Shown here: positions 22,877 through 25,807 of the stretch, one piece after another
How the letters are laid out: each line of letters begins with the position of its first letter
Position numbering within the stretch: the stretch's first letter is position 1
Source of the DNA: Candidatus Thalassospirochaeta sargassi
GTDB taxonomy: Bacteria > Spirochaetota > Spirochaetia > UBA9216
Assembly (NCBI GenBank): GCA_028532855.1
Contig: JAQQAL010000006.1
Location: forward strand, 1 to 64,000
DNA: 64,000 bases
Direction: 5' to 3'
Translations under genes and position numbers: made by a program
The notes under the pieces: generated by a model
What the model was told of the DNA's origin: nothing
Databases searched by the model: none
The model's input: the letters and a program-made list of their open reading frames with translations, nothing else

Positions 22877-24244
22877 TTACAGCCGCTGCTTTGACAGGGC
22901 TTTCAGCCTCTGCATATCCGCACGCGTAAACCCCTCCCATTCCATGGGGAAGAAACTGTTGTTATGGTACAGCGGTTCATCCTCAAGGGGAAGGGAGCAG
23001 CGTGCAACGCAGTCGGGCCACATTGGCGAGCCCGGCACCGGTGAGAATTCCGAAACCGACAGTGTAAAACCGCGATCGGCCGCAAATCTTATCGTATCTT
23101 CAACCTCGCTGGCCCGTTGCCCAGGCAGGCCCGCGAGGATATAGACAACTATCTGACTTCTGTCGAAACCCGCGTCGGTAAGCATACGTACTGTATTATG
23201 AAATCCTCGCTCGGAGTATTTATTATCATACTCACTGTGAAACTCATCCGACGCACTTTCAAACCCGAGCCGGACTTCCTGAAATCCCGCGCTCTTCATA
23301 AGGTCGGCAATTTCAGCCGTCATATAACGGATGTGCATTGCATTCGGGGTGTAAAAGTTAAAGCGAGTTCCGGTGCGGCTGCTGTAATCCACGACCTGCT
23401 TCAGAAATGGAATGAACACGCTGCTTGAATCAAACAGAACTGCGTCATCATAGAAGGCGAAGTTCCGCGTTCCACGTGTTTCGGCAAGCAGCCTCAGCCG
23501 CTTAAAAACCTTTTCAGGCCGCCCCGGGCTGAATCCGCCGCAGAGACTCCGTGAGGCACAGTAACCGCAGTTCATCGGGCAGCCGTCGTTTAACCGTAGA
23601 ACTGCCGCATCATTCCAGCAGTCATGATCAAGTGGTGCGTCAGATGAGGGGACAGCACCGGGCAGAGCCCCGGCCTCAAGAAAGGCGTTCAACGCGCGCC
23701 CCGACTCACTCAACACCGTACTGCCTGACAGCGTCATATTTCCCGCTGCTATATAATCAGGCTTACAGACCCTCACACAGTGTTCCGGCATAAGAGAGGC
23801 ATAAACACCGCCGATAATAAGCGGAACATCGGGCCACAGCTCTCTGCAAAGCTCAGCTGCTTCTACCACCCCCCTGTACCAGTATGTCATGCCGGAGGAG
23901 ATAAAGATTGCATCCGGCTTTTCCTCTGCTATCTTCTGCTTCAGAACATCTTTCAGGATACCGTAGCGGGCAAACTTCCGCCGTATCCCCTGAAGCTCCG
24001 GTGGCAGCTTCAATGTCTGCCGGTGAAATTTACCGGTTCCGTCAGCCTTTCGTCTGACACTTCCTTCTACTTCGACAGTAGATTCATCGGTATAATCCAA
24101 TGCATTTATGAGACGGGTGTTCCATCCGCCGGCTTCAAGCATTGCAGCAATATTCAGAAGACCGTATGGTTTCAAATAAAGATCATAGAGAGCGAAATCA
24201 TGAACCGGGGGATAAATCAGAAGAGCTTCGGGTCTGTCAGTCAT
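22877..24244 (-). CDS. B12-binding-domain radical SAM protein
   Basis: 455 residues. The N-terminal part (about 1-190) resembles a cobalamin-binding fold but lacks the DxHxxG motif. The iron-sulfur site is C-x3-C-x2-C in CPMNCGYCAS near residue 215, followed by radical SAM core motifs (FYDDAVLFDS, LGFESASDEF, VYILAGLPGQ). The substrate is unknown; relatives modify lipids, tRNAs or natural products. The start at MTDRPEALLIYPP (24244) is preferred; the frame is open seven codons further upstream. It converges with gpsA, 8 bases away. Confidence 0.82.
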   Translation of the reverse strand: MTDRPEALLIYPPVHDFALYDLYLKPYGLLNIAAMLEAGGWNTRLINALDYTDESTVEVEGSVRRKADGTGKFHRQTLKLPPELQGIRRKFARYGILKDVLKQKIAEEKPDAIFISSGMTYWYRGVVEAAELCRELWPDVPLIIGGVYASLMPEHCVRVCKPDYIAAGNMTLSGSTVLSESGRALNAFLEAGALPGAVPSSDAPLDHDCWNDAAVLRLNDGCPMNCGYCASRSLCGGFSPGRPEKVFKRLRLLAETRGTRNFAFYDDAVLFDSSSVFIPFLKQVVDYSSRTGTRFNFYTPNAMHIRYMTAEIADLMKSAGFQEVRLGFESASDEFHSEYDNKYSERGFHNTVRMLTDAGFDRSQIVVYILAGLPGQRASEVEDTIRFAADRGFTLSVSEFSPVPGSPMWPDCVARCSLPLEDEPLYHNNSFFPMEWEGFTRADMQRLKALSKQRL

Positions 24245-24335
24245 TAGAAAAATACAATAAATCATTAGTCGTTCAAGTACAAGTTGAATTTCGTCACTGA
24301 AGATTATTTTTTTTTACATTTTTGTAAACTTTCTC

Positions 24336-24363
24336 TTGCAATTTCATGATTCTGGTTTAAAAT
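24336..24363 (+). promoter_or_regulatory. Sigma-70-type promoter for the GGA-rich RNA
   Basis: TTGCAA (24336-24341) and TAAAAT (24358-24363) are separated by 16 bases. Transcription would start near 24370, just before the GGA-rich stretch and more than 350 bases upstream of the next large gene. Confidence 0.55.
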
Positions 24364-24369
24364 AATACA

Positions 24370-24655
24370 TCATCAGAAATGAGGAAACAATTCTTTGAGA
24401 TTTTTATCCATTATCACATAAATCCCAGGTTGATTGAGAGAGGAGATGTTTATCTGTGTCCGGAGGTTGATTAAAAAAGGATGCGTTTAAACAATGAAAG
24501 CTGAGCTTGAGGAGGTCCGGCTTTCAGGAAGTTTGACTTTGGAGGAAGTTAACCTTCCACGGGAGGTGGCAACACTTTCAATACTTATTTAAAAAAAGCC
24601 CCTCAGGGGAAAGGAGGTAGTAAAACCCTGAGGGGAACATCTAAAAAAGGAGGTT
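24370..24655 (+). ncRNA. Candidate CsrA-binding RNA with repeated GGA hairpin loops
   Basis: This stretch codes for no plausible protein but carries about twelve GGA motifs, seven in GGAG or GGAGG context. At least four hairpins expose the motif in the loop. Arms 24496-24501/24520-24525 enclose GGAGG. Arms 24535-24539/24546-24550 give the hexaloop TGGAGG. Arms 24557-24560/24566-24569 give the loop GGGAG. Arms 24599-24608/24626-24635 (10 bp) enclose AAAGGAGGTAG. Less regular arms at 24415-24422 with 24449-24458 enclose a further AGGAG. GGA in hairpin loops is the hallmark of CsrA/RsmA sites and of the CsrB/RsmZ sponge RNAs. A good promoter precedes it. No rightward terminator is seen, so it may be the leader of the 24728 gene rather than a separate RNA. 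Confidence 0.5.
24592..24635 (-). terminator. Hairpin with leftward T-run
   Basis: Ten perfect pairs (24599-24608 with 24626-24635) are followed on the minus strand by GC and seven T. This is a textbook terminator pointing left, yet no leftward gene lies to its right. On the plus strand the same hairpin is preceded by A7, is not followed by T, and shows GGAGG in its loop. Confidence 0.45.
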
Positions 24656-24656
24656 A

Positions 24657-24704
24657 ATGAAAAAAACTCCACGCTTCATAAATACCAACAACACATCCAT
24701 ATAA
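24657..24704 (+). CDS. Possible leader peptide
   Basis: AAAGGAGG-tta-ATG is a very strong translation start for a 15-codon frame, MKKTPRFINTNNTSI, ending 23 bases before the exonuclease-family gene. The peptide is not enriched in one amino acid and matches nothing I know. It may be a real short peptide that couples translation to the next gene. Alternatively the GGAGG may be part of the CsrA-type motif series and the frame accidental. Confidence 0.3.
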   Translation: MKKTPRFINTNNTSI

Positions 24705-24727
24705 AGGTTACAAAAATATTAAGAAAA

Positions 24728-25807
24728 ATGAAAATTTTTAAATTTATAATAATTGTTATATCTGCAGCGGCGGCAATTCTGTTTTCAGCCCTGCTTTTTT
24801 TTGTCTTTACAGAATACAAACCCGCAGAATCCGAGGTTCTCACACCCGTTTATGATTCAGCCTTATCACAAACGGCAGATGAAAGCCCTACCCCGGGCGG
24901 TTTACGGATCCTCACATGGAATACTGGCTACTGCGGGCTTAATACTGAAACTGACTTCTTTCTGGAAGGCGGAAGCAACACAGATCGTCTCCCGCTAGAG
25001 AGACAAAGAACAGCTCTGAACGAAATAATCGGTTTTATTGATGCTCAGGAAGCTGACATCTGCCTATTGCAGGAAGTTGACACCGATTCAAAACGCTCAT
25101 GGTCGAAAGACCAGCTTTACACAGCTGTATCAGTCCTTAAAAACTACGAAGCCTACTATGCAATTAATTATAAAAGCCCATTTGTTCCGGTACCGCTGGA
25201 ATCACCCATAGGCAGGGTGAAATCAGGTATAGCAATGTTCTCCCGTTACGCTGTGAGCAGAGCAGAGAGACTTAAACTGCCGGGTCAGTTTTCATGGCCG
25301 GTTCGCCTGTTCCATCTTAAACGCTGCGCTCTTATCAGCAGCATCCCGTCTCCGGTTGCAGGTAAGAACTGGTACATCATCAATGTACACCTGTCAGCCT
25401 ATGATGAGGGCGGCATGCGGGAAATGCAGCTGGAATATGTGAAAAATCTTATTACCGAACTCTACGCGGACGGCCATTATGTAGTTGTTGGGGGTGACTG
25501 GAACCTGCTTCTCCCCGGCACTGACAAAACGCAGTTCGGCAGCTATAACACCAGTGAAGAAAACCTGGGTTGGGTTAAAACCATGCCGGCAACATGGACG
25601 CCCGGTAACTGGCAGTGGTGTTATGATGAAGAAACCCCAACGGCAAGAAGCCTCGAACAGCCCTACAGCGCGGGCGAAAATTTCACATGTATCATAGACG
25701 GCTTTCTTGTGTCGCCGAACCTTCGTGTCGATGAGGTTGAAGCTTTCAATCTGAGATTCGAACACAGTGATCATAATCCGGCTGCAATAACAGTAAGTAT
25801 CAGGTAG
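24728..25807 (+). CDS. Membrane-anchored endonuclease/exonuclease/phosphatase-family hydrolase
   Basis: 359 residues. A hydrophobic N-terminal segment (about 5-28) is a signal anchor. The EEP fold follows: RILTWNTGYCG near residue 60, LLQEVDTDSKRS near 117, NVHLSAYDEGG near 220, GGDWN near 257 and the closing SDHNP near 348, which holds the catalytic Asp-His pair. Metal-dependent phosphodiester hydrolysis is expected outside the cytoplasmic membrane; the substrate could be nucleic acid, phospholipid or inositol phosphate. Its own ribosome site is weak, and its leader is the GGA-rich region, so control by CsrA is possible. It ends 8 bases inside the opposing phosphoesterase gene. Confidence 0.82.
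   Translation: MKIFKFIIIVISAAAAILFSALLFFVFTEYKPAESEVLTPVYDSALSQTADESPTPGGLRILTWNTGYCGLNTETDFFLEGGSNTDRLPLERQRTALNEIIGFIDAQEADICLLQEVDTDSKRSWSKDQLYTAVSVLKNYEAYYAINYKSPFVPVPLESPIGRVKSGIAMFSRYAVSRAERLKLPGQFSWPVRLFHLKRCALISSIPSPVAGKNWYIINVHLSAYDEGGMREMQLEYVKNLITELYADGHYVVVGGDWNLLLPGTDKTQFGSYNTSEENLGWVKTMPATWTPGNWQWCYDEETPTARSLEQPYSAGENFTCIIDGFLVSPNLRVDEVEAFNLRFEHSDHNPAAITVSIR

Follow-up and report, generated by a model that had tools for sequence, protein, structure and literature searches.

A putative anti-Shine-Dalgarno small RNA gene, conserved across the spirochaetes, shares its promoter motif with an ECF sigma factor gene

We analysed a stretch of 64,000 nucleotides from Candidatus Thalassospirochaeta sargassi (contig JAQQAL010000006.1, positions 1 to 64,000; hereafter, the window), and in particular the gap between a radical SAM gene and the gene of a membrane-anchored hydrolase. 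For positions 24370-24655 of this gap, which are non-coding except for tiny ORFs, a first-pass annotation had proposed a CsrA-sequestering RNA or a CsrA-controlled leader on the plus strand. Comparison of the gap with relatives by BLAST revealed two blocks, one found in the genus only (24330-24490) and one class-wide (24590-24730), while a BLAST search of plasmids gave no match. For the deeply conserved part, 24591-24712, we predict a minus-strand small RNA gene, whose parts and flanking genes are as follows.

22877-24265, minus strand: radical SAM protein with a B12-binding domain (PF04055, PF02310), left neighbour of the gap
24591-24681, minus strand: predicted small RNA of ~90 nt, with a predicted 5' end and its 3' end at the U-run
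24599-24636, minus strand: intrinsic terminator, stem CCCCUCAGGG/CCCUGAGGGG, followed by the U-run 24591-24597
24613-24617, minus strand: putative anti-Shine-Dalgarno (anti-SD) motif 2, CCUCC in the terminator loop UUUUACUACCUCCUUU
24649-24653, minus strand: putative anti-SD motif 1, CCUCC inside CAUUAACCUCCUUUUUU, complement of a Shine-Dalgarno (SD) sequence plus AUG
24687-24689, minus strand: predicted -10 element GTT of the small RNA promoter (24687-24712), spaced as upstream of the ECF sigma gene
24707-24712, minus strand: predicted -35 element TGTAAC, of ECF type, assigned by the conservation of GTAAC-N17/18-GTT
24728-25807, plus strand: membrane-anchored endonuclease/exonuclease/phosphatase (EEP) family protein (PF03372, E 7.6e-15)

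The strand of the conserved element can be read from its hairpin. On the plus strand, the hairpin of the block 24590-24730 comes after an A-run; on the minus strand, it precedes a U-run, as in an intrinsic terminator. Among 87 homologues, the 885 stem pairs include, on the minus strand, 40 G-U and 0 A-C, and the T content is 7.4 of 9 nt after the stem and 1.2 on the other side. The presence of G-U without A-C, together with the T-run after the stem, thus places the conserved RNA on the minus strand. G-U pairing had previously been read in favour of the plus strand: this holds for the species-specific hairpins described below, whereas the conserved hairpin points to the minus strand.

In 89 aligned sequences, all ten pairs of the terminator stem have changed on both sides (164 cells; 0/500 shuffles), and 99.1% of the stem cells are paired, compared to 71% or less in the slid-structure controls, figures somewhat favoured by the fitting of this alignment to the covariance model. 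The small RNA of the window has a fold z-score of -2.3. The first covariance model was built from nine sequences. By covariance model, the small RNA was found in 142 of 395 Spirochaetia genomes, representing 66 of 133 genera, and the window itself was matched at 24591-24686 on the minus strand with 112 bits; a second model, built from 89 matches, retrieved it in 104 of the 393 genomes that represented the phylum, with few of these outside the class. Coherently, the 24 matches of an exact pattern scan over 84,980 species genomes all fell in spirochaete-titled records. Matches of 24662-24689 in contig C14 and in genome G012 were discarded, as they appear to be chance or coding sequence. At the gathering cut-off, Rfam matched neither the window nor any of ten homologous loci; in permissive mode, the best match was ar15, an alphaproteobacterial anti-SD small RNA, on the minus strand with 26 bits against a cut-off of 40.

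The loop TTT..CCTCCTTT is constant across homologues while the stem sequence varies. Each of the 87 homologues that have a stem carries CTCCTTT in its terminator loop, a motif that the stem search itself required. In the motif 1 region, CATYRACCTCCTTTT is kept in close homologues; CAUUAACCUCCUUUU was read as an unpaired segment of the small RNA, and in the fold computed for the home sequence some of motif 1 is base-paired. CCUCC motifs in loops with variable stems are also a trait of the alpha-r14, alpha-r15 and cuckoo RNAs. Variants were also observed: in two loci of family f12 (L073 and L078), motif 1 is kept (CATAAACCTCCTTTT) and CCUCC is gone from the terminator loop, and in four loci of families f8 and f28 (L097, L104, L115 and L123) two tandem hairpins, with a CCTCC loop in each, replace the single one.

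Then, we considered the promoter. GTAAC-N17/18-GTT precedes the small RNA in 12 of the 12 first relatives. Over the wider set, GTAAC..GTT was found upstream of 47 of 87 homologues, including 26/26 of the closest and three of the f24 g26 genomes, and the exact promoter is missing in the other 40, mostly distant. The form TGTAACYT-N15/16-GTT has four sites in the home genome: the first is that of the small RNA, the second immediately precedes an ECF sigma factor gene (domains PF04542 and PF08281), and the other two appear to be inside coding sequence, so that only the first two are at intergenic starts. The product of the gene after the sigma factor is 180 residues long and contains an HxxxCxxC motif and a single hydrophobic stretch; it has no Pfam match, and by eye we read it as a putative zinc-type membrane anti-sigma factor. 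The pair is located at 1530-2587 of locus L125 (contig C25 of the home genome), 3' of a cysteinyl-tRNA synthetase-like gene, and its promoter is of the autoregulatory type and conserved across the class.

An orthologue of the sigma factor was found in 55 of 60 relatives. The promoter motif precedes 49 of the 50 sigma orthologues inspected (30/30, then 19/20 in other families), compared to a background rate of 0.0036 per 220 bp; the single exception carries GTAAC..TTGTC. The small RNA is present in 38 of the 55 genomes with the sigma gene and in none of the five without it (Fisher p 0.005, uncorrected for phylogeny). The promoter of the small RNA is thus identical to the autoregulated sigma promoter, the mark expected of an ECF sigma-dependent small RNA. 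Since the same promoter lies directly upstream of the ECF pair, and in front of 49/50 sigma orthologues, the small RNA very probably belongs to an autoregulated ECF stress regulon. As a side observation, five loci of family f9 (L062, L063, L065, L068 and L070) keep the small RNA with no exact GTAAC promoter; several f9 loci have in common an upstream motif, GAAAGAGAACGACA, and the f9 sigma gene retains GTAAC..GTT.

CCUCC is the core of the 16S rRNA anti-SD sequence, and an RNA with CCUCC loops is therefore expected to compete for the SD sequences of mRNAs. Overall, we consider it likely that the element encodes an ECF-sigma-controlled, stress-induced, trans-acting RNA of ~90 nt, which would block SD regions via CCUCC. 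The conserved sigma factor, apparently of an envelope-stress type, would be held by the zinc-type (HxxxCxxC) membrane anti-sigma factor and released under stress; it could then recognise the small RNA promoter, and minus-strand transcription would start at about 24681 and end at the terminator 24591-24636. The two CCUCC segments, one in the linker and one in the terminator loop, would pair with the SD regions of mRNAs, blocking ribosome binding.

The search for putative targets was conducted in the home genome. The exact SD-plus-AUG complement, AAAGGAGGTNNATG, is absent elsewhere in this genome, its sole site being the antisense strand of the small RNA itself. AAAGGAGG precedes ATG at 18 sites, 17 of them besides the antisense site of the small RNA, compared to 28 in the reversed control. 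Because there is neither a second exact complement nor an excess of AAAGGAGG over the control, no target set stands out. The genes with strong SD sequences, taken as candidate targets and named by eye (permeases, NuoE-like, RnfA/E-like, rpsD and UspA), have no clear theme, and an Hfq gene was not detected in the home genome.

The plus strand of the gap has features of its own:

24336-24363, plus strand: promoter TTGCAA-16-TAAAAT, conserved in G001-G004
24370-24727, plus strand: long leader predicted for the mRNA of the EEP hydrolase, running antisense to the entire small RNA gene
24427-24452, plus strand: leader repeat 1, AGGTTGATTGAGAGAGGAGATGTTTA, complementary to the linker of a second small RNA (small RNA 2)
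24464-24489, plus strand: leader repeat 2, AGGTTGATTAAAAAAGGATGCGTTTA, complementary to small RNA 2 with a 17-nt unbroken run
24490-24590, plus strand: insertion with GGAGG-loop hairpins, missing in G001-G003

The promoter, which the first-pass annotation had pointed out, is indeed present, and its -35/extended -10 region is kept in the four other genomes of the genus (G001-G004). Given this conservation, the EEP hydrolase mRNA of this genus probably has a plus-strand leader; the leader was taken to run to 24727 because, in addition, no clear plus-strand terminator precedes the gene. Its portion 24370-24590 is conserved in the genus only. Two ORFs were considered as coding candidates and rejected: MKKTPRFINTNNTSI, following AAGGAGG, as a leader peptide (its frame is broken in G002 by a shorter A-run, and it is the complement of the small RNA), and a 32-codon ORF at 24494-24592, which sits in the insertion missing from G001-G003. 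In G004, an independent, different insertion with similar elements takes the place of 24490-24590.

Small RNA 2 is genus-specific and was located in the home genome (G000) at 61189-61389 of contig C7, minus strand (loci L025 and L182; relatives L183-L185). It consists of a 5' hairpin, an unpaired linker with two CCUCC motifs and the terminator CCCGUCUGAUUCGUUGAAUCAGGCGGGUCUUUUUU. As its promoter is GTAAA/GTAAG with a spacing of 16-19, we do not claim sigma control for it. AGGTTGATTAAAAAAGGA..GTTTA, which is complementary to this linker, occurs once or twice in the plus-strand leader, and CAGGTTGATT in leader repeat 1 is invariant in five genomes. The leader, which is fully antisense to the adjacent small RNA and in part complementary to small RNA 2, could thus be a decoy or a target of anti-SD small RNAs, a possibility that is compatible with our main explanation and that we regard as somewhat unlikely. 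In its favour, the unbroken runs with the small RNA 2 linker reach 17-19 in G000, G003 and G004 and 11 in G001, the total pairs are 28-30 compared to shuffle maxima of 26-28, and GGAGG is enriched in the home leader, as it is over 24370-24655 (six against 0.98 expected, a count reached by 1/2000 dinucleotide shuffles). Conversely, one shuffle in G000 gave a run of 20, the total pairs of G004 were equalled by a shuffle, and duplex energies were matched by some shuffles in three of the four genomes; moreover, the small RNA 2 locus was not found in G002, and the likeness could stem from common descent of the repeat and small RNA sequences. The pairing beats most shuffles, not all of them, and the decoy idea is thus to be taken as a lead. 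A broader and more speculative extension, which we rate lower still, is a two-layer ECF-sigma stress circuit, in which an Hfq-free, class-wide anti-SD RNA would be accompanied by a genus-level leader antisense to it and bearing tandem decoys for small RNA 2; if this were true, transcription of the hydrolase would soak up both small RNAs.

In a different role, the leader would offer CsrA a few GGA binding sites, with no part played by the small RNA of the minus strand. This reading is improbable, even though promoter and leader are conserved in the genus; csrA, which the earlier reading required, is present in the home genome. The CsrA consensus is ARGGAUGU, and AAGGAUGYG, found in repeat 2 of three genomes, resembles it. 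However, the strongest conservation in the leader falls on CAGGTTGATT rather than on GGA, and repeat 2 of G003 has GGT in place of GGA. About twelve GGA motifs had been reported in 24370-24655; we counted 13, and no 286-base stretch on either strand of the window has more. The cluster is real as a count, but it is not an enrichment once dinucleotides are considered (10.1 expected; 220/2000 shuffles reach 13). Indeed, ANGGA, the core of the CsrA site, is not enriched in the home leader either (one against 2.2 expected), and four of the 13 GGAs (24608, 24613, 24634 and 24649) are the complement of the minus-strand RNA gene.

The opposite simplification, that the minus-strand hairpin is just a transcription terminator with a conserved loop and no regulatory RNA, is very improbable in our view: the hairpin does have the shape of a perfect intrinsic terminator, but it has its own conserved promoter ~75-90 nt upstream and, ahead of the stem, a CCUCC segment that is also conserved, its loop is constant although the stem changes freely, and the gene neighbours differ among loci.

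The weakest reading is that of a plus-strand CsrA-sequestering RNA analogous to CsrB or RsmZ, which we consider barely credible: csrA and the conserved plus-strand promoter are compatible with it, as are the species-specific GGAGG-loop hairpins and a modest plus-strand fold of the home leader (z -1.8, versus +0.85 on the minus strand), but GGA and ANGGA do not exceed shuffles in the home leader, and the TGGAGG and GGGAG loop hairpins, which the proposal named, lie within 24490-24590 and are not conserved within the genus, an outcome that the first-pass annotation had itself listed as refuting. Furthermore, csrA was found in 268 of 395 genomes of the class, and the small RNA occurs with no csrA in G008 (91% complete), G009 (93%), G023 (93%), G035 (97%) and G014 (99%). 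The RNA without csrA and the strand evidence argue strongly against a conserved CsrA titration. What stands of the original proposal is that the gap hosts a real promoter and a regulatory RNA; the conserved RNA, however, is on the minus strand, and its motif is the anti-SD CCUCC.

Returning to the ECF-controlled anti-SD RNA, no family reached the Rfam cut-off at the small RNA loci, and our literature search retrieved none of such form described for spirochaetes. The RNA is widespread (half of the sampled genera), it covaries strongly, and its promoter links it to a single sigma factor that most sampled relatives have, which makes a spirochaete stress regulon with a post-transcriptional arm directly testable. 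It would also indicate that the use of anti-SD small RNAs extends well beyond proteobacteria and streptococci, and the covariance model offers a search tool for annotating spirochaete genomes.

We infer a new class-wide family of spirochaete small RNAs, mechanistically similar to known anti-SD small RNAs and, judging from its promoter, belonging to an ECF sigma regulon. The sigma-E dependent small RNAs (MicA, RybB and VrrA) are the repressor arm of the ECF sigma/anti-sigma envelope stress response, and they use specific seeds and Hfq. The spirochaete RNA would share with them the role of repressor arm of an ECF sigma/anti-sigma response, whereas its anti-SD motif is generic and no Hfq was found in the home genome. 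With CsrB, CsrC, RsmY and RsmZ, the locus shares the repeated GGA on the plus strand, but the RNA that is conserved there lies on the opposite strand and also occurs in genomes that lack csrA.

The closest resemblance in layout is to RNAs with CCUCC motifs. Short RNAs of the alpha-r14/cuckoo type carry CCUCC-type anti-SD motifs in unpaired loops while their stems vary, and the alpha-r14 member NfeR1 represses through CCUCC loops, CCUCCUCCC (PMC10746234); the Rhodobacter CcsR operon (CcsR1-4) has an RpoHI/RpoHII stress-sigma promoter in front (PMC10253847). The CCUCC anti-SD loops and variable stems are common to the spirochaete RNA, to alpha-r14/cuckoo (NfeR1; CcsR1-4) and to alpha-r15 (AbcR), while phylum, motif (ACCUCCUUU), ECF promoter and the lack of an Rfam match at cut-off set the spirochaete RNA apart from alpha-r14 and alpha-r15. 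The tandem CCTCC-loop hairpins of the f8 and f28 loci resemble the multi-hairpin alpha-r14 layout. The streptococcal CiaR-dependent csRNAs have an unpaired anti-SD plus anti-AUG (CAU) segment beside the terminator (PMC3091779). Motif 1, CAUUAACCUCC, combines the two sequences in a similar order, but some of it is base-paired in the home fold, and its exact SD-plus-AUG complement has no further site in the genome. The csRNAs are under the CiaRH two-component system, whereas the spirochaete promoter is the GTAAC-N17-GTT common to the ECF gene, and the csRNA description that we consulted notes no conserved anti-SD in the terminator loop, unlike the spirochaete RNA. The likeness to both alpha-r14/cuckoo RNAs and csRNAs would be one of mechanism, not of homology.
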